DNA of 37,908 nt, from contig JAQXDJ010000031.1 in the NCBI GenBank assembly GCA_029251425.1, forward strand, positions 1 through 37,908, written 5' to 3'. This document shows positions 6,554 through 25,180 of this stretch, one piece after another. This stretch comes from Vicingaceae bacterium. Lineage in GTDB: Bacteria; Bacteroidota; Bacteroidia; Flavobacteriales_E; Vicingaceae. The notes under the pieces are model-generated. The model was given only the letters and a program-made list of their open reading frames with translations, made no database searches and was not told the origin of the DNA. The position numbers and the translations under genes were made by a program. The first letter of the stretch is position 1. Each line of letters starts with the position of its first letter.

Positions 6554-6586
6554 AAATCCCCAAACCTATATAAAGTTTGGGGATTT
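6554..6586 (-). terminator. Intrinsic terminator of the 6600-8414 gene
   Basis: A perfect 12-bp stem (AAATCCCCAAAC at 6554-6565 with GTTTGGGGATTT at 6575-6586) has a 9-nt loop. On the minus strand it is followed by a run of T residues. It starts 14 bp after the stop of the minus-strand gene and keeps its transcription from entering the tetR promoter. T-rich sequence on the other side could let it work in both directions. Confidence 0.85.
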
Positions 6587-6599
6587 AAATTTTATTTTT

Positions 6600-8414
6600 T
6601 TATGCTTGTTCTAAAGAGGGCAATGTTATTTCTTCAACAATTGCTTTATATTGAGCCAATTCTTCTTTAAATTTTGTTTTAATCACCTCAGATTCATCTT
6701 TCATTTCATTCAGTAAGTTTTCATAATACTCAATTCCCGAATTTAAATTGGCTTTAAACCCTTGGTAGTATTTTACTCTTTTACCATTTAATGCCTGAAG
6801 AGGTTCTTCGATAATTTCTTTATTTAAATAATCAATATACATTCCCAATTCTTTAATAAACATATGAGGTCTGTATGTATCATTTAAAACATTGTTTTTC
6901 CCGTAAATATGACCAACCATTTCTTTTAATGTTGATTCTTTAGAGAAATATGCAAGGTTTGGTCCTGGACATAAAGAAACACCTGTACCGTCAGATCTTT
7001 TTAACAAGTCATTTTCAGAATACGCTGTCATAACCAAGCCTGCACAAATACAAGACTTTACTGTTATTTTATCGTAAGCTTTTTGATGTTCTGATTCTGG
7101 AAGGTTTTTTTCTTCTAACTCAGCAATTTTCAATTTTTGATATTGACGGGATGCCAAACAAATTGGTCTCTCAGTAAATTCTGTATTGTAAATTTTTAAG
7201 AACTGGCTAGGACAAGTACTGCCTGGTTTTCCAGCAGCAATTTTCTCATCTTTTTCAACATCTTTTGTGTTTCCTTTAACTGAATTAAAAGGAACTCCTA
7301 TTGGAGAAATATCACTCAAATAAAGTTCATTTGTTCCTGCGTCAGAAAGAATTTTAAAAGAATTTTCATCAACGTTCACAGCTTCAGGAACCAATAAAAA
7401 TGGTGTCCCCCATCCAACTAAATCAACATCATAATTCTCTAATAGTAAATTATGTTCGTTAGCTGTTCCAACTCCTCCTTGAGCTGTTACCAACATTTTT
7501 AAAGGTTTAGTAAGTCTTTTCCTTTCCAACCCTTCTAATGCATCATTTAATATAGCATGAACTTGCTCTATTAATTCATTCTTCTTTTGTTTAAACTCTT
7601 CTAAGATTGGCCCCATTAAGTAACCATCAGTAGCAAAAGCATGCCCCCCACAATTTAAACCTGACTCAACTCTATATTCAGTAACCCAAATTCCTTTTTT
7701 AGCCAAAAATTTTCCTTGAACCAAAGCTGAACGGTAATCACTAACTTTTAAAATAATTGTTTTGTTTAGTTGCTCGTTTTCATCCGGAAAAAACTCATCA
7801 AAATTTGCAACATAACTATATAGTCTTGGGCTTAACCCCGCAGACAATACAACCCCAGAAGTTAAATCACTTTTTGCGAAACCTCTTAATGCTGCATGAG
7901 CATCATTCATTTCTTGTGGCAACTGCTCTCCTGTTTTCGTAAAATTAGCCTTATCTAATTTTGTCATAATGTTTACATCAATAGCTCCAGGCTCCATATT
8001 GTCCCTTAACCACTGTTGTTTTTTTTCTACAACTAAAGAGTCTGTCTCTTCAGTCATTCTTTTATACTCTTTCTTAAGGTCACACACATCAGGAAGCATT
8101 TCAAAATACTTCGTCAATTCGCTTCCTTTATCAAAAGAGGCATTCTTTAATTCTTGAAATTTATTTTTCACCATTCGATTCATCACATTTAAATAAAGTG
8201 TGATTCTCCTAGCTCTTTTATCAAGATCATCTTTAGCAACTTCTATATATGGTATGTCCATCTTATTGCAATAAAACTTTCTCATTCTATCTGCCAACAA
8301 ATCATCTCCCAATGACAATACTGAAGAAATACCAAAAGGTGCAACCTTAAAAGGTGTGTCAATCGTAAACCCAATTCCCATTACAGGAATTTGAAATGTA
8401 TGTTTTTTTTCCAT
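6600..8414 (-). CDS. Unnamed NPD/FabK-like flavoprotein with C-terminal cysteine cluster
   Basis: I do not know a name for this 604-residue protein, which looks like a conserved Bacteroidota family. Three stretches resemble the FMN-binding barrel of nitronate monooxygenases and FabK/PfaD enoyl reductases: IPVMGIGFTIDTPFKVAPFG near the start, SGLNCGGHAF (251-260, like the EAGGH loop), and AQGGVGTANEH (311-321) followed by VGWGTPFLLVPEA (like GGI..GADGVQMGT.F..T.EA), which would hold the FMN phosphate. A helical insert lies at about 60-180. After the barrel come five cysteines in conserved-looking motifs (C401 in CPSQ, C419 in CLASRQY, C455 and C457 in CICAGL, C482 in CPGPN), which could bind an iron-sulfur cluster or zinc. 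It is a single-gene unit with its own promoter and terminator, and has no signal peptide, so it is cytoplasmic. FMN binding and metal binding are inferences; substrate unknown. Confidence 0.7.
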   Translation of the reverse strand: MEKKHTFQIPVMGIGFTIDTPFKVAPFGISSVLSLGDDLLADRMRKFYCNKMDIPYIEVAKDDLDKRARRITLYLNVMNRMVKNKFQELKNASFDKGSELTKYFEMLPDVCDLKKEYKRMTEETDSLVVEKKQQWLRDNMEPGAIDVNIMTKLDKANFTKTGEQLPQEMNDAHAALRGFAKSDLTSGVVLSAGLSPRLYSYVANFDEFFPDENEQLNKTIILKVSDYRSALVQGKFLAKKGIWVTEYRVESGLNCGGHAFATDGYLMGPILEEFKQKKNELIEQVHAILNDALEGLERKRLTKPLKMLVTAQGGVGTANEHNLLLENYDVDLVGWGTPFLLVPEAVNVDENSFKILSDAGTNELYLSDISPIGVPFNSVKGNTKDVEKDEKIAAGKPGSTCPSQFLKIYNTEFTERPICLASRQYQKLKIAELEEKNLPESEHQKAYDKITVKSCICAGLVMTAYSENDLLKRSDGTGVSLCPGPNLAYFSKESTLKEMVGHIYGKNNVLNDTYRPHMFIKELGMYIDYLNKEIIEEPLQALNGKRVKYYQGFKANLNSGIEYYENLLNEMKDESEVIKTKFKEELAQYKAIVEEITLPSLEQA

Positions 8415-8445: not shown

Positions 8446-8477
8446 CAAATATAAGTAACTTAAATGATTATTTCCAA
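8446..8477 (-). promoter_or_regulatory. Promoter of the NPD-like gene
   Basis: On the minus strand TTG (8477-8475) is followed after 21 nt by TATATTTG (8453-8446), a full match to the Bacteroidota -33/-7 pattern. The -7 element lies 31 nt before the ATG at 8414, giving a leader of roughly 25-28 nt. Confidence 0.65.
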
Positions 8478-8565: not shown

Positions 8566-8573
8566 TATATTTG
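8566..8573 (+). promoter_or_regulatory. Promoter -7 element of the solute-binding lipoprotein gene
   Basis: TATATTTG matches TAnnTTTG exactly and lies 21 nt before the ATG at 8595. A TTG codon within it is in frame with the gene, but using it as a start would place the -7 element inside the coding region. This supports 8595. No clear TTG is seen at the -33 distance. Confidence 0.6.
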
Positions 8574-8594
8574 GAAAATCAAAGGATAAAAAAC

Positions 8595-10313
8595 ATGAAA
8601 AAAATAGCTTTAAGCGCTTTTACTGTATTAATTTTTTTACTCTCTTCTTGTGGAGGAAATGATAATGAAACAACACTAAAAGACCCCTCAAATAATGACA
8701 AAGAAACTGAAAACTCTTGTTTAGATTTTGCAATTAATGAAAAATATCAAACCTTAGACCCTATAAAAATTACTGACGTTACTTCATTTCATGTCTTAAG
8801 TCAAGTTTATGAACCTCTCCTAAGGTTTAATGAAACAGATTTATCATTAGAGCCTCTTTTAGCAGAGTCATGGTCAGTGAGTGACAATAATCTTGTTTAC
8901 ACTTTTAACTTAAAAAAAGGTGTCTATTTTCATGACAATAGTTGTTTTGAGAACGGTAAAGGAAAAGAGTTTAACGCTTCTGATGTTATTTACTCTTTTG
9001 AACGGGTTTTTTCAGAGACAGAGGGTAACTATGCTTATAGTTTATTTAGAAACACTATTGAAGGGGCTGAACAATTCAAAATTTCTGGAGGAAACATCTC
9101 TGGAATTAAAGCTATTGATGATTATACTGTTTCTTTTACTTTAACAAAACCTTCCTCTAGTTTTATTAACCTTATGGCGATAACAAGCGCAGCAATTGTA
9201 AACAAAAATGCAATTGAAAAAAATGCAGTTGCTGGAACAGGCCCGTTTATTTATAACAAAAAAAATGATACAAAGCTTGCTGTTACACTGCTCAAAAATA
9301 AAAATTATCACATGTCCGACAATAAAGGCAACAAACTTCCTTATTTAGAATCCGTAGCATTTAACTACATTCAAGATGGGCAAGATGAATTAACTCTTTT
9401 TAAAGAGGGTAAGCTAGATGTTATCGTTGGCATTCCCCCTGAATCTGTTAAAGAAATTGTCGAGGATCAAATCTCTGATTTTCAAAACAAGCCAACAAAA
9501 TATGTATTAGGAAGATACCCCAAAATACTCACCTCTTACTTAAGCTTAAATACTGCAGTGCAACCTTTCAATAATATTAAAATTAGACAGGCAATTAGTT
9601 TAGCAATTAACAAAACAAAGATTGTAACAAACGTTTTAAAGGGTGAAGCTTTTGGAGAAGGAAATCACGGTATAGTTCCTCCAGCAATAAAAGAATACGA
9701 CTTTTCTTCTGTTATTGGTCAAGAACACAATATTGTAAAAGCAAAAAAATTACTATCAGAAGCTGGATACTCTCAAGGAAAAGGGTTTCCTACAATTAAA
9801 TTTTCAGTTGGAAAAGGAAATACTAGCGTGCGTGTTGCTTTAGAAATTCAAAAACAACTGTTAGCCAACCTCAATATAAACGTAGAGATATCTTCTCTTT
9901 TTCAAAAAGAAATTATGACCCTTAACGACTCTTCACAAACAAACATGAGTTTAGGTGGTTGGTTAGGCGAATACCCTGACCCTGTTTCTTTTTTATCAAT
10001 ATGTTATGGTGCAGATGTTCCCCAGTCCAATACAGAAAGTGCATTTCCAAATGAATCTCGTTACAAAAACAAACGGTTTGACCAGCTTTACGAACAAGCC
10101 TCAATTACCTTAGATTTAAAAAAGAGATACGAACTTTGTTTAGAGGCCGATCAAATTATTGCAACAGAAGTGCCTGTAATTCCACTTTGGTATCATGAAA
10201 ACTATCAACTAATTCAATCGTCAATAAAAAACTATAAACCAAACCCTATGAACCTTCGCTACCTAACTTATGTTAGTATAGATAAGGCTTCATCAAAGAA
10301 ATTAGAAGAATAG
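8595..10313 (+). CDS. Family 5 (peptide/nickel-type) ABC solute-binding lipoprotein
   Basis: This is a periplasmic, membrane-anchored binding protein of the DppA/OppA/NikA class, which captures oligopeptides or similar solutes. The 572-residue protein begins MKKIALSAF and has a lipobox LLSSC, with Cys19 the likely lipidated residue. The family pattern is clear: LDPIKITDVTSFHVLSQVYE near the N-terminus, LAESWSVSDNNLVYTFNLKK, FNASDVIYSFERV, the KIRQAISLAINKTKI region, and a C-terminal IIATEVPVIPLWYHENYQ. Length is normal for the family. No permease or ATPase gene is nearby, so its transporter is elsewhere or it has another role. The next gene on the same strand, an MMPL-type exporter, follows after 72 bp and may be co-transcribed. 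Specificity cannot be read from the sequence. Confidence 0.9.
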   Translation: MKKIALSAFTVLIFLLSSCGGNDNETTLKDPSNNDKETENSCLDFAINEKYQTLDPIKITDVTSFHVLSQVYEPLLRFNETDLSLEPLLAESWSVSDNNLVYTFNLKKGVYFHDNSCFENGKGKEFNASDVIYSFERVFSETEGNYAYSLFRNTIEGAEQFKISGGNISGIKAIDDYTVSFTLTKPSSSFINLMAITSAAIVNKNAIEKNAVAGTGPFIYNKKNDTKLAVTLLKNKNYHMSDNKGNKLPYLESVAFNYIQDGQDELTLFKEGKLDVIVGIPPESVKEIVEDQISDFQNKPTKYVLGRYPKILTSYLSLNTAVQPFNNIKIRQAISLAINKTKIVTNVLKGEAFGEGNHGIVPPAIKEYDFSSVIGQEHNIVKAKKLLSEAGYSQGKGFPTIKFSVGKGNTSVRVALEIQKQLLANLNINVEISSLFQKEIMTLNDSSQTNMSLGGWLGEYPDPVSFLSICYGADVPQSNTESAFPNESRYKNKRFDQLYEQASITLDLKKRYELCLEADQIIATEVPVIPLWYHENYQLIQSSIKNYKPNPMNLRYLTYVSIDKASSKKLEE

Positions 10314-10385
10314 TTTATTTCTCTTTTCATCCTCTAGGATTAATACGATATTTGTGCGCTGTTATCCGTAATTGGAACTATTTAT

Positions 10386-12830
10386 ATGTGGGTTAAATTC
10401 TCAAGACTAATACTACGAAACCGTTTAGTAATTCTTATTGTTTTAGGAATTATTACTGCCTTTATGGCTTATCGTGTTCAGTTTGTAAGCATGAGTTACC
10501 AGCTCGCTCAAATGCTTCCAAAATCAGACAAAACACACATTGAATACCAAGAGTTTAGATCTACCTTTGGAAAAGACGGGAGCATTGTTGTTGTTGGAAT
10601 AAATAATGAAGACCTTTTTAAACTCAAAAACTACAATGCTTGGTATGATCTTACTCACAAGATTAAAAAAATTACCGTTGATTTTAAAATTAACAAAAAA
10701 GACACTGTTGTTAATGGTGTAACAGAAGCGCTTTCTGTTGCCAACCTTTTTTCTCTTAAAAAGAATAAAAAAGAAAAACGGTTTGACTTTGAACAAATAG
10801 TTAAACATAAGCCATCCACCCAAAAAGAGTTAGATAGCTTAAAAAATGTACTTTATAGCCAACCTTTTTACAATGGTTATTTATATACAGACTCATCAGC
10901 AACTACATTAATTGCAATTACATTAGAGTCAAGAGTTTTAAACTCTAAGTACCGAAACGAACTTTTTGAAAAGATTGATGCTGAAGTTTTAGCTTTTCAT
11001 GAAAACACAGGAATAAAGGTTCATAAATCTGGACTTCCATATATTAGAGCTAATTCAACAACTAAAGTAAAAGATGAAATTCTAATTTTCTTAGCCCTTT
11101 CAGTTTTTATTACCTCTTTAATTCTGTATTTATTTTTTAGATCATTTAAGGCAATGATTTACTCTATGTTGGTAGTAATTATTGGGGTTGTTTGGTCAGT
11201 GGGTATTCAATCTCTTTTTGGGTATAAAGTAACTATTCTTACAGGTTTAATTCCACCATTAATTATAGTTATAGGTATTCCGAATTGTATTTTCTTGTTA
11301 AATAAATACCATTCCGAATTTAAAAACCATGGAAACCAGGTAAAAGCGTTGAATAGGGTTATTCAAAAAATTGGGAACGCAATATTTCTAACCAATACAA
11401 CAACCTCTTTAGGTTTTGCTACATTTATTTTTACAAAAAGTGAAATATTAATAGAGTTTGGAGTATTAGCTGCTATTGATATTTTTATGGTGTTTATTCT
11501 TTCAATACTTATTATTCCTATTGTTTTTAGCTTTTTAGCCCCCCCAAAAGAGCGACACACCAAACATTTGGAAAATAAAAAAATGGTTAAAATTGTCGGT
11601 TTCTTGGAGCACATTGTAAAGTTTCATAGAAAAAAAGTTTATGCCGTAACCGTTGTTGTTGTCTTATTAAGTCTTTATGGTGTTTCTCAAATTACAACTA
11701 CAGGAAACATTATTGATGATTTGCCAAAAAACGACCCTATTGTTCAAGATCTTAAATTTTTTGAAAAAGGTTTTAACGGGGTAATGCCATTCGAAATTGT
11801 TATTGACACAAAAAAAGAAAATGGTGTTTTTGCAGATAATGGTAAGGTTTTATATAAAATACAGAAACTACAAAAAAGCTTAGCAGAATATAAAGAGTTC
11901 TCCAAACCTCTTTCTATTACCGAAGTAATTAAGTTTAGCTATCAAGCTTATAAAAAAGGTAAGCCTAAATTTTACATTCTGCCACCTGCAACAGAATTAA
12001 AAAAACTGCAAAAATATGCTAAAAACGACTCTCGAAAATCTAAGTTTTCTTCATTTATAGATAGCACCAATCAAATTACAAGGGTTAGTTTTCAGATGGC
12101 AGATATTGGAACCAAAGAAATGGATGTTTTACTTGCTGATATTCGTCCAAAAATAGATGAAATATTTCCCCCTCAAGATTATAATGTAAGCTTAACTGGC
12201 ACAAGTGTTGTGTTTTTAAAAGGAACCAACTATTTGGTTGAAAACTTATTAACCAGTTTAATTTTGGCTATTATTTTAATTGCCTCATTAATGTCTATTT
12301 TATTTTCATCTGTTAGAATGGTATTGGTTTCATTAATGCCCAACCTACTCCCTTTATTAACTACTGCTGGCTTAATGGGGTTCTTTGGCATCCCTATAAA
12401 ACCTTCTACTATTTTAATTTTTAGTATTGCTTTTGGTATTTCAGTAGATGATACCATACACTTCTTAGCAAAATATAGGCAAGAACTAAAACATCACAAA
12501 TGGAACATTAAAGAAGCTGTTTATCTAGCCCTTCAAGAAACGGGGGTAAGTATGATTTACACTTCTATTATTTTATTTTTCGGGTTTGGAGTTTTTACAG
12601 TTTCTAGTTTTGGAGGAACAATTGCTTTAGGAATTTTAGTTTCTATAACGCTTTTATTTGCAATGATGTCTGACTTAATATTGTTGCCATCTCTACTTTT
12701 GTCATTAGACAAATCGCTAACAACCAAAGCCTTTAAAAAAGAACCATTAATTGAAATAATGGATGAAGAAGAAGATATTGATTTGGACGAACTAGAAGTT
12801 AGACCTATTAAACACAAAGAAATAGAATGA
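10386..12830 (+). CDS. MMPL/RND-superfamily membrane exporter
   Basis: This 814-residue inner-membrane protein has the RND-superfamily double layout: one N-terminal helix (about 11-30), a large periplasmic domain, five clustered helices (about 225-390), then the same arrangement again. The second half contains FGISVDDTIHFLAKYRQE (around residue 680-700), with the paired acidic residues used for proton coupling in MMPL, HpnN and Patched-like proteins. The equivalent place in the first half reads IGIPNCIFLLNKYH, without the acids. Relatives export lipids, hopanoids or other hydrophobic molecules. No adaptor or channel gene is adjacent. The tail ends in a strongly acidic stretch (EIMDEEEDIDLDELE). 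A weak -7-like GATATTTG lies at 10347-10354. Lipid export is suggested by family and by the RfbA and prenyl synthase genes downstream, but not shown. Confidence 0.88.
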   Translation: MWVKFSRLILRNRLVILIVLGIITAFMAYRVQFVSMSYQLAQMLPKSDKTHIEYQEFRSTFGKDGSIVVVGINNEDLFKLKNYNAWYDLTHKIKKITVDFKINKKDTVVNGVTEALSVANLFSLKKNKKEKRFDFEQIVKHKPSTQKELDSLKNVLYSQPFYNGYLYTDSSATTLIAITLESRVLNSKYRNELFEKIDAEVLAFHENTGIKVHKSGLPYIRANSTTKVKDEILIFLALSVFITSLILYLFFRSFKAMIYSMLVVIIGVVWSVGIQSLFGYKVTILTGLIPPLIIVIGIPNCIFLLNKYHSEFKNHGNQVKALNRVIQKIGNAIFLTNTTTSLGFATFIFTKSEILIEFGVLAAIDIFMVFILSILIIPIVFSFLAPPKERHTKHLENKKMVKIVGFLEHIVKFHRKKVYAVTVVVVLLSLYGVSQITTTGNIIDDLPKNDPIVQDLKFFEKGFNGVMPFEIVIDTKKENGVFADNGKVLYKIQKLQKSLAEYKEFSKPLSITEVIKFSYQAYKKGKPKFYILPPATELKKLQKYAKNDSRKSKFSSFIDSTNQITRVSFQMADIGTKEMDVLLADIRPKIDEIFPPQDYNVSLTGTSVVFLKGTNYLVENLLTSLILAIILIASLMSILFSSVRMVLVSLMPNLLPLLTTAGLMGFFGIPIKPSTILIFSIAFGISVDDTIHFLAKYRQELKHHKWNIKEAVYLALQETGVSMIYTSIILFFGFGVFTVSSFGGTIALGILVSITLLFAMMSDLILLPSLLLSLDKSLTTKAFKKEPLIEIMDEEEDIDLDELEVRPIKHKEIE

Positions 12831-22787: not shown

Positions 22788-24005
22788 CTATCGCTTAAAA
22801 ACCTTAAATGTTTCCTGTTTGGTTTCAGAAACTACTTTTACAAAATAAACTCCTTGGTTTAAGGGTTGTAGTTTTAAATTAACGGTTTTAGTCTTATTTA
22901 CTTTCTTTGTCTGAAGAATTTTACCCAATACATCATAAACCAAAACAGTTAATTCTTCTTCTCTTTTGTTTGAGGAGAAATTAAACTGGTTTTTCGAGAA
23001 AAACCCTTTCCAGTTGTTTTTCACCTCCAACTCTTCCGAACCAACATTAACAGGAATACTTACTTTTAAAACTACAGGCAAATGATCTGACATGTAATAA
23101 AGCGCATCAATTACATTGCTTGGTGCAGCATTGTTTGTTCCTGAATTAATTGATTGGTTAAAATGATTACCATCGTTACCAACAGCGGTATAAGAACCCG
23201 GCACATAAGTTAGCCCTTGAGTCCCAGTTTGTAATTGATCATTAAAAAATATAAAGTCAAAACGGTCATCCATCCCCCCAGAAGCACCACCATCCCCAAT
23301 GCTCGAAGAACGAGTACTTTGCGTATGAATACTTGCAAAAGAAGAATTATTATTCCAACTTCCAGGAGAAGAAATAGGGTCTAACAAAGGAACATTTCCT
23401 CCATTTAAAATTGTATTGTAGGCAGGTTCTGCGCTTGTATATAAATTAAAATCACCTCCTAAAATCACATTTTCGAGATCAGCTCGTGAATCTAAATAAT
23501 TTTTAAAAACACCTGCTTCCTGGTTTCTTTTTTGCTCATTAGTAACTCCAGAACTGGCTTTTAAGTGTGCAGAATAGCAAAAAATAAAAACAGTATCAGA
23601 GCTGGCTGTCATGTTTGGTGCTTTATAATACAACACGTACTCACTAATGTTTCTTAAGGCTGTTGGTATTTCTTTTTGACTATACAAAACAAGTTTGTCA
23701 GAGTTAAAATACAACATGTTGTTCGTGTCTGGTCCCGAAAAAAATGTTGCTCGTAAATAATTTGTAACACCATCAACATTTAATGCGTCCGTTAAAATTG
23801 TTGTTGCACCAGCAGAAGATTCCAGCTCATTTATTAAAAAAATATCGGGCTGAACATGTTTGATAATCGGTTTTAGTGTGTCTGCTTTTGAAGTGTTAGA
23901 TGACGGATAATTTAACACGTTATAAGTCATAACAGTTAAAGTGTCTTGGGAGTTAGCTCCAAGCGCCAAACTCAGTAATATAATAAACAAAACTATTCTC
24001 ATCAT
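22788..24005 (-). CDS. Secreted EEP-family nuclease/phosphatase with T9SS sorting domain
   Basis: This is a probable extracellular DNase-like enzyme. The 405-residue protein has a signal peptide (to ALGANS-Q) and then at once the endonuclease/exonuclease/phosphatase fold. Key residues are Asn29 (MTYNVLNY), Glu60 (INELES), His147 (SAHLKAS), Asp185 and Asn187 (GGDFN), DDRFDFIFF (246-254), and Asp307-His308 (MSDHLPV). All match the metal and phosphate site. Residues about 328-405 form a type A T9SS sorting domain ending YFVKVVSETKQETFKVFKR, so the protein is exported to the cell surface or medium. The start is the ATG at 24005; the TTG at 24008 is not needed. It follows the second EEP gene by 6 bp in one operon, divergent from the TonB-dependent receptor operon. 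Substrate is unproven; other EEP members act on inositol phosphates or sphingomyelin. Confidence 0.88.
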   Translation of the reverse strand: MMRIVLFIILLSLALGANSQDTLTVMTYNVLNYPSSNTSKADTLKPIIKHVQPDIFLINELESSAGATTILTDALNVDGVTNYLRATFFSGPDTNNMLYFNSDKLVLYSQKEIPTALRNISEYVLYYKAPNMTASSDTVFIFCYSAHLKASSGVTNEQKRNQEAGVFKNYLDSRADLENVILGGDFNLYTSAEPAYNTILNGGNVPLLDPISSPGSWNNNSSFASIHTQSTRSSSIGDGGASGGMDDRFDFIFFNDQLQTGTQGLTYVPGSYTAVGNDGNHFNQSINSGTNNAAPSNVIDALYYMSDHLPVVLKVSIPVNVGSEELEVKNNWKGFFSKNQFNFSSNKREEELTVLVYDVLGKILQTKKVNKTKTVNLKLQPLNQGVYFVKVVSETKQETFKVFKR

Positions 24006-24011
24006 CAATAA

Positions 24012-25076
24012 TTATTTCAAGGGGTTGTCAAGTTCTTTAATTAAAAACATATAAACCGGAAAGTGGTCACTATAGCCGCCCACATAAGTTCCAAAAGAAT
24101 AAGTTCTATAAGGGTACCCTTTGTATCGGCCTTCAGTACTTTTTAAATAAGGCTTATTAAACACCTTTGATTTATAAAGTTTAAAAGAGGAGTAGTCTTT
24201 TCCTAAAAGAGGTTTAGACACCATGATTTGATCAAACAAATTCCATGCATCGCGATAAGCCAAAGTCCCTATCCCTTTTTTATAATAACTTTCCCAGGGA
24301 TTAAACAGATCTCCTTTTCCTAGTTTTTCCTCTTTTCCGTTTCCTCGTAAATGTTTTTTTACACTTTCATCTACAGGGTCATCATTTAAATCTCCCATAT
24401 AAAATACTTTTGTTTTAGGGTCATTCTTTTGTAAAGAATCAACAATCATTCTACCTAATTTTGCCGCAGAGGCCCTTCTTGGTTTACTTCTTTTTTCACC
24501 ACCTCTACGTGATGGCCAATGTGCTACAATTACATGAATTTTTTCCCCATTTAACAACCCACTTACGAGTAGTTGATCCCTTGTGTAAAATGTTGTATCA
24601 ATATTTCTTAAAGAAAAGCTTTTGCTAGATGTAACTTCAAAATACTTGGGGTTATATAATAGGCCAACATCAATTCCTCTTCTGTCTGGAGAATCATAAT
24701 GAACTACCTGGTAGTTTCTGTTTTTAATGCTTTCTGATTTTACTAAATCTTCTAAAACACTTTTATTTTCAACCTCTGAAACTCCTAAAATTGCAACTCC
24801 GTCTGGTGTTATTTCTGTTCCGATTTCACCAATAACTTTAGCCATGTTTACCAACTTTTCTTGATAATGCTCTGATGTCCACGCTTTATTCCCTTTTGGC
24901 GTAAAGTCCTCTTGTAAAATTTTATTTGGATCTGGATCAATTAATGTATCAAAAAGGTTTTCTAAATTATAAAACCCAATTCCTGTAACTAAATATTCCT
25001 TTTTTTGCTCTTGTGAAAATGTATTCCCTAAGATAGCGGTAGCAAGGATTATTGATAAAATAAAGTGTTTCTTCAT
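24012..25076 (-). CDS. Secreted EEP-family nuclease (periplasmic or cell-envelope)
   Basis: This 354-residue EEP-fold enzyme has a signal peptide (MKKHFILSIILATAILGNTF, cut near SQ) but no T9SS domain or lipobox, so the periplasm is likely. Active-site residues are Asn38 (FYNLENLFD), Glu101 (VSEVENK), His186 (AHWPSRRGG), Asp229 and Asn231 (MGDLNDDP), LFDQIMVS, and Asp337-His338 (YSDHFPVY). FYNLENLFD plus AHWPSRRGG is the style of Bacteroidota endonucleases. The start at 25076 is preferred over the ATG-less upstream extension to 25145, because it begins the signal peptide and a full promoter lies at 25139-25106. Being periplasmic, it could finish the cutting begun outside by the T9SS-exported partner encoded 6 bp downstream. 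Substrate is inferred. Confidence 0.88.
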   Translation of the reverse strand: MKKHFILSIILATAILGNTFSQEQKKEYLVTGIGFYNLENLFDTLIDPDPNKILQEDFTPKGNKAWTSEHYQEKLVNMAKVIGEIGTEITPDGVAILGVSEVENKSVLEDLVKSESIKNRNYQVVHYDSPDRRGIDVGLLYNPKYFEVTSSKSFSLRNIDTTFYTRDQLLVSGLLNGEKIHVIVAHWPSRRGGEKRSKPRRASAAKLGRMIVDSLQKNDPKTKVFYMGDLNDDPVDESVKKHLRGNGKEEKLGKGDLFNPWESYYKKGIGTLAYRDAWNLFDQIMVSKPLLGKDYSSFKLYKSKVFNKPYLKSTEGRYKGYPYRTYSFGTYVGGYSDHFPVYMFLIKELDNPLK

Positions 25077-25105
25077 TGTATATTTTTTTGCAAAGTAACT
25101 AATTT

Positions 25106-25139
25106 CAAATTTATGGTTTTTGTTTTGTTCAATTCTCAA
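25106..25139 (-). promoter_or_regulatory. Promoter of the EEP nuclease operon
   Basis: On the minus strand TTG (25139-25137) and TAAATTTG (25113-25106) are 23 nt apart, matching the Bacteroidota pattern; a closer TTG is at 25132-25130. The -7 element is 29 nt before the ATG at 25076. Confidence 0.6.
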
Positions 25140-25180
25140 TGTCAATTTTCTGTTAACTAATTATCAACAATTTAGTTGTT

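Follow-up and report, generated by a model that had tools for sequence, protein, structure and literature searches.

A FabX-like family of predicted flavin/iron–sulfur proteins in Bacteroidota and its association with low-oxygen and denitrification loci

We analyzed a 37,908-nucleotide stretch of a Vicingaceae genome (the window), where a gene on the minus strand (positions 6600–8414, stop codon included) encodes a FabX-like, predicted flavin/iron–sulfur protein of 604 residues. The ORF starts with ATG, and its translation has more than 100 full-length homologs. A Bacteroidota-type promoter, ATTTAAG...TATATTTG, precedes it on the same strand (8446–8466, with TATATTTG at 8446–8453) and is present in most of 14 relatives whose upstream regions were aligned. 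After the stop codon lies a terminator-like inverted repeat, CCCCAAAC...GTTTGGGG (6558–6582, minus strand). The gene stands alone, with a TetR-TolC-HlyD operon downstream and a divergent gene for a peptide-binding lipoprotein upstream. A preliminary description of this DNA had read the locus as a single-gene unit with its own promoter and terminator, as these signals bear out, and the motifs it named are present in the translation: GGH at residues 256–258, GGVGTANEH at 313–321, and GTPFLLVPEA at 336–345. This divergent gene (8571–10313) encodes a family 5 solute-binding lipoprotein and precedes a gene for an MMPL transporter; about 12 relatives retain it beside the FabX-like gene. Elsewhere in the window, two adjoining endonuclease/exonuclease/phosphatase proteins are encoded on the minus strand (22788–25145), one of them with a Por secretion tail.

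Searching Pfam, NCBIfam, and PDB sequences with the 604-residue protein gave no meaningful match. The Pfam nitronate monooxygenase (NMO) family, PF03060, did not match it up to E = 10, nor did it match any of 38 family members among the matches listed, and the protein matches neither the NCBIfam FabK model (TIGR03151) nor the PfaD model. A match to NF001645 (E = 0.0005) was discarded as noise, since it scored 20 bits against a cutoff of 162 and covered 43 residues. Full-length homologs occur in 113 of 297 genomes sampled across Bacteroidota (38%), in 32 of 60 close relatives, and at 80 loci of GTDB contigs, including records labeled Omnitrophota, Desulfocapsa, and Desulfobia. Homologs were also found in 10 of 198 sampled genomes from the phylum of the Desulfocapsa record, and the family is thus present in some Desulfobacterota. 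The homologs on the three labeled contigs (L035, L091, and L106) are ∼50% identical and reflect either lateral transfer or mis-binned Bacteroidota contigs. The homologous gene is split in Chryseobacterium sp. E1 (L110), and one genome carries a second copy in pieces with stops (G151:C1:4371176-4372859).

Across 132 full-length relatives, six cysteines (C255, C401, C419, C455, C457, and C482) are 100% conserved, far beyond chance; C49 and C111 vary in the same set. N148, E250, the GGH motif, G313, G314, G316, S370, and P371 are invariant as well. The preliminary description had named five of these cysteines and proposed their invariance as a check; all five (C401, C419, C455, C457, and C482) are placed exactly and hold throughout the alignment, and the sixth, C255 of NCGGH, had been missed.

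An AlphaFold2 model of the window protein, built with 38 homologs, reached a pLDDT of 83.6 and a pTM of 0.85, with the GGH loop and residues 402–409 below a pLDDT of 50. The first five PDB matches of this model in Foldseek were all Helicobacter pylori FabX, an acyl-ACP dehydrogenase/isomerase (E values from 4.4e-8); FabK and nitronate monooxygenases came next. A second AlphaFold model, of the L035 homolog (pTM 0.87), likewise had FabX as its best PDB match (E = 1.3e-10), ahead of PfaD-type reductases and FabK. The TM-score to FabX, normalized by target length, is 0.59–0.66, at an identity of ∼15%. Both models, which contain no cofactors, show an NMO/FabK/FabX-type barrel, in line with the FMN-barrel-like fold that had been suggested from the sequence, and we assign an FMN barrel to the protein with high confidence. 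The predicted barrel spans residues 1–380 (7275–8414; this and all protein features below are on the minus strand). The helical insert of the preliminary description reappears in the secondary structure of the AlphaFold2 model at about residues 60–140 (7995–8237), in a gap of the FabX-like alignment, and residues 507–604 (6603–6896) form a C-terminal helical extension; FabX has neither.

FabX is an FMN enzyme of the NMO family whose C-terminal subdomain carries a [4Fe-4S] cluster (PMC8626469). Its N99 binds FMN, which is also contacted by E175, S179, and T340; S273 hydrogen-bonds the catalytic H182; C300, C304, C308, and C320 hold the cluster; and T130 and R164 bind ACP, with R164 needed for ACP binding (PMC8626469). 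To place these residues, we gathered FabX-like proteins from Desulfobacterota genomes by a CX3CX3C pattern search among NMO relatives and aligned the family profile with five of them by hhalign, counting the FabX residue number of each paired position by hand. The five included L246, which matches H. pylori FabX at 418 bits. The alignment (E = 1.5e-8, 266 columns) begins at the NIM strand, takes in the cysteines, and ends at IYG. It pairs the invariant N148 (7971–7973) with the FMN-binding N99. In the stretch ESGLNCGGH (E250–H258; 7641–7667), the invariant E250, C255, and H258 fall on the FMN contact E175, on S179, and on the catalytic H182, respectively. G313 and G314 of GGVGT (residues 313–317; 7464–7478), the predicted FMN phosphate-binding loop, pair with G220 and G221, and S370 of SPIGVPF (residues 370–376; 7287–7307) pairs with S273, FabX reading SPVGYP at this motif.

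The same alignment continues through the C-terminal cluster subdomain, making residues 381–506 (6897–7274) homologous to that of FabX and, by prediction, a [4Fe-4S] subdomain. Within it, C401 (7212–7214) pairs with C300, C419 (7158–7160) with C308, and C455 with C320, so that three of the invariant cysteines stand at FabX ligand positions. The fourth FabX ligand, C304, has no partner in the family; C457, which forms a C-I-C motif (7044–7052) with C455, stands at A322 and is proposed to replace it. A FabX-like protein encoded at L255 (247–2583, C-terminal part) shows the same exchange: it has Tyr at the C304 position, and its C320-I-A segment reads CIC. Its ligand set is thus C...C...CxC, as in the family, but Cys is missing from the positions equivalent to C255 and C482. 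The protein seems to represent an intermediate stage in the move of a cluster ligand. Because L255 makes the same C304-to-CIC exchange, C401, C419, C455, and C457 are most likely the cluster ligands here. C482 (6969–6971), in the CPGPN motif, pairs with T340 and, together with C255, is predicted to sit at the flavin. A cluster following the FTG motif, topologically unlike that of FabX, was ruled out, as SPIGVP pairs with SPVGYP and CPGPN with FTGAN.

We consider it very probable that the protein binds a [4Fe-4S] cluster. The flavin plus iron–sulfur redox enzyme put forward in the preliminary description is the best reading of the locus, given that the nearest solved structures are of FabX, which carries FMN and [4Fe-4S] (PMC8626469); both cofactors are strongly inferred. 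The description of the cysteines as added has to be amended, in that the alignments identify them as a variant of the FabX cluster subdomain and not as an extra feature of unknown nature.

In the genomes of relatives, the gene directly follows the Fe-S repair gene RIC at L195, L176, and L177, and coordinates place it likewise in about 12 genomes of one family (f44). It adjoins nadA-nadB at L149, L154, L195, and L196. The last of these loci carries a long run comprising Rrf2, a short unplaced gene, a globin-like gene (recognized by eye only), RIC, a 2Fe-2S ferredoxin, a hemerythrin, a fatty acid desaturase, the FabX-like gene, nadA, and nadB. The desaturase gene lies 66 bp upstream of the FabX-like gene in one operon, a neighborhood seen in one lineage only. 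Across the sampled genomes and uncorrected for phylogeny, RIC co-occurs with the family in 79 of its 113 carriers (odds ratio 7.4, P = 5e-15) and clade II NosZ in 56 (odds ratio 3.2). In 16 of the 55 genomes with coordinates for both genes, from 10 genera and four families, nosZ lies within 13 kb. Neither RIC nor NosZ was found in the window's own genome, which is 80% complete. The neighbors are enzymes of oxygen-independent biosynthesis or repair (NadA/NadB and RIC) together with an O2-dependent desaturase, a combination consistent with a low-oxygen role; neighbors and promoters together suggest that bacteria use the enzyme at low oxygen or when respiring nitrogen oxides. Genomic context had been judged silent on the reaction; this holds within the window, but not across relatives, where context is informative.

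When neighbors were clustered, the gene was mostly alone, and recurrent neighbors were lineage-bound; an aldo/keto reductase in Chryseobacterium and a convergent kynureninase in Flavobacterium were set aside on this ground. The cbb3 profile was dropped as a discriminator, being present in 212 of the 297 genomes. In one lineage of the window's own family (L190), the gene is part of a benzoyl-CoA-type cluster that also contains Had and Oah, both of which act on acyl-CoA. This degradation cluster (L190, 2323–15872) further encodes a 2-hydroxyacyl-CoA dehydratase/benzoyl-CoA reductase-like subunit and a 616-residue protein, of which the first half matches a ketopantoate-reductase-like model and the second half a dehydratase activase. 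At L176, a membrane protein of ∼400 residues without a Pfam or NCBIfam match (9835–11067) adjoins both the gene and RIC; a 401-residue neighbor of the gene at L084 is similar to it in size and look.

Regulatory sequences point in the same direction. In an unbiased palindrome scan of 67 nonredundant upstream regions of family genes, the most enriched palindromes were ATGA-N6-TCAT, TGAC-N4-GTCA, and TGAT-N4-ATCA. The combined FNR/CRP-type box TGAYNNNNRTCA is present in 17 of these regions, always 61–121 bp before the ATG, compared with 4.7% of other genes at the same loci and about one occurrence expected after shuffling. In a matched control restricted to genes with their own upstream gap, the count was 15 of 54, whereas 5000 control draws gave 2.5 on average and never more than 7. 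No FNR-type box is present in the window's own genus, which instead shows the plain Bacteroidota promoter in the upstream alignment of 14 relatives.

We therefore favor, as reasonably probable, a divergent and enlarged FabX-type FMN/[4Fe-4S] oxidoreductase whose probable substrates are acyl thioesters and which would operate at low oxygen or during denitrification. In such an enzyme, FMN in the NMO-type barrel and a [4Fe-4S] cluster held by C401, C419, C455, and C457 in the C-terminal subdomain would relay electrons, in one direction or the other, connecting a substrate bound at the H258/S370 site with an external partner that exchanges single electrons. C255 and C482, lining the FMN, could tune the flavin or act as a redox or acid–base pair. 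An acyl thioester, either acyl-ACP or acyl-CoA, would be dehydrogenated, isomerized, or reduced next to the thioester; we infer both the substrate class, toward which the balance tips only slightly, and the direction of the reaction. Acyl-ACP may not be the substrate, because the stretch around FabX R164 is shortened here. Electrons are probably not exchanged directly with a pyridine nucleotide, because the cluster subdomain stands, as it does in FabX, where FabK binds NAD(P)H. Cells would make the enzyme under low oxygen or during respiration of nitrogen oxides, and it may then stand in for a step that requires oxygen, such as fatty acid desaturation, without requiring oxygen itself.

Several other readings were weighed against this one. 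The cysteines might bind zinc or form disulfides in place of an Fe-S cluster, because the ligand spacing is unlike that of FabX and sequence alone cannot tell metals apart; we give this little credence, as the subdomain is homologous to the FabX cluster domain, a FabX-like protein has the same four-cysteine set, and the enzyme is cytoplasmic and linked to Fe-S repair genes. The rank of FabK and PfaD right after FabX among the structural matches could point to an NAD(P)H-dependent enoyl reductase of either type, which is very improbable considering that the NCBIfam FabK and PfaD models are not matched and that the window's own genome encodes another NMO-family protein, similar to FabK in length (323 aa). 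A nitronate monooxygenase-like or nitrosative-stress detoxification enzyme would account for the NMO fold, the catalytic His, and the RIC, Rrf2, hemerythrin, and nosZ neighbors. However, any enzyme needed at low oxygen would have the same neighbors, the Pfam NMO family does not match, the structurally nearest protein is FabX and not an NMO, and known NMOs lack a cluster; we regard this reading as quite improbable.

Two further alternatives concern the acyl substrate itself. The L190 cluster would suit a ring dehydrogenase or reductase acting on cyclic or aromatic acyl-CoA thioesters in anaerobic degradation: the gene lies 16–22 bp from a thiolase and from Had (the latter above its NCBIfam cutoff), in the company of Oah, an HGD-D/benzoyl-CoA-reductase-like subunit, an activase fusion, and a CoA ligase. 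This arrangement is confined to one lineage, and most carriers are ordinary aerobic flavobacteria at whose loci such genes are absent, making the reading improbable as an account of the family. Narrower than our favored explanation, and a possible though unlikely form of it, is an oxygen-independent unsaturated fatty acid synthase of Bacteroidota, which would carry out a FabX-like dehydrogenation and isomerization of medium-chain acyl-ACP and replace the O2-dependent desaturase during anoxic respiration. It would explain the FabX homology, the desaturase 66 bp upstream in one operon, the low-oxygen box, and the linkage to nosZ and RIC, and it would agree with the finding that the family and a FabX-like protein occur together in none of the sampled genomes (0 of 13, P = 0.002, confounded by clade). 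The shortened ACP-binding R164 region, the extra Cys at the FMN, the single desaturase neighborhood, and the fact that fatty acid synthesis genes are not recurrent neighbors all weigh against it. Somewhat speculatively, the FabX-type oxidoreductase that we favor could be an unrecognized enzyme of oxygen-independent fatty acid desaturation in mostly aerobic Bacteroidota, switched on with denitrification to supply membranes without oxygen.

A family carried by 38% of the sampled Bacteroidota genomes, with no Pfam or NCBIfam entry, can now be placed beside FabX. It is linked to loci of low-oxygen life and denitrification, and the residues proposed for the cluster and the flavin are defined well enough to be mutated. 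Synthesis of unsaturated fatty acids without oxygen, if this is its role, would help to account for the membrane fluidity of desaturase-dependent bacteria in anoxic respiration; if not, it would represent a new reaction on the FabX scaffold. The proposed relocation of C304 to the A322 position, with L255 as an apparent intermediate, provides a clean case of cluster-site rewiring. The fold and the cofactor pair are already known from FabX. Our literature searches found no usable description of the family or of an NMO gene at nosZ, nor did they turn up a prior account of the ligand set, the two cysteines at the flavin, the extra domains, the wide distribution of the family, or its link to denitrification.

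Compared with known systems, the family shares its fold and FMN-site motifs with nitronate monooxygenase (PF03060) but has no Pfam match to it; apart from FabX, we know of no NMO that carries a cluster. PfaD and trans-AT enoyl reductases (PDB ID codes 4z9r, 6lkc, and 4cw5) are larger barrel proteins of similar size, with structural similarity of second rank only; they have a GGH-type active site and, to our knowledge, no conserved cysteine set. FabK (enoyl-ACP reductase II) has the barrel fold and the catalytic His in common with the family, but is ∼320 residues long, is not recognized in the family by its NCBIfam model, and has an NAD(P)H-binding part where the family has the cluster subdomain; in the hhalign alignment, the cluster-type subdomain occupies the place of this part of FabK and PfaD. 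FabX-like proteins of 425 residues in other Bacteroidota (L274–L281) share the FMN barrel and a C...C...CxC...C pattern in the cluster subdomain and likewise lack the CX3CX3C of FabX. They differ in having no Cys before GGH, no large helical insert, and no C-terminal extension, and none was found in sampled genomes carrying the 604-residue family.

H. pylori FabX itself (HP0773; PDB ID codes 7e1q and 9lt5) has 363 residues against 604 here, the helical insert and the C-terminal helices belonging to the family alone. The cluster ligands of FabX are arranged as CX3CX3CX11C, in contrast to the proposed CX17CX35CXC of C401/C419/C455/C457, and FabX S179 and T340 at the FMN are replaced by Cys. In the multiple alignment, the family has a shorter R164 segment and does not agree with FabX at the T130 position. 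As judged from these alignments, the family lacks the ligand motif and ACP residues of FabX proper but is like FabX in architecture: the two have in common the NMO-type FMN barrel, the catalytic His with its Ser partner in SPxGxP, a C-terminal [4Fe-4S] subdomain (predicted here), and residue equivalences through the whole core.
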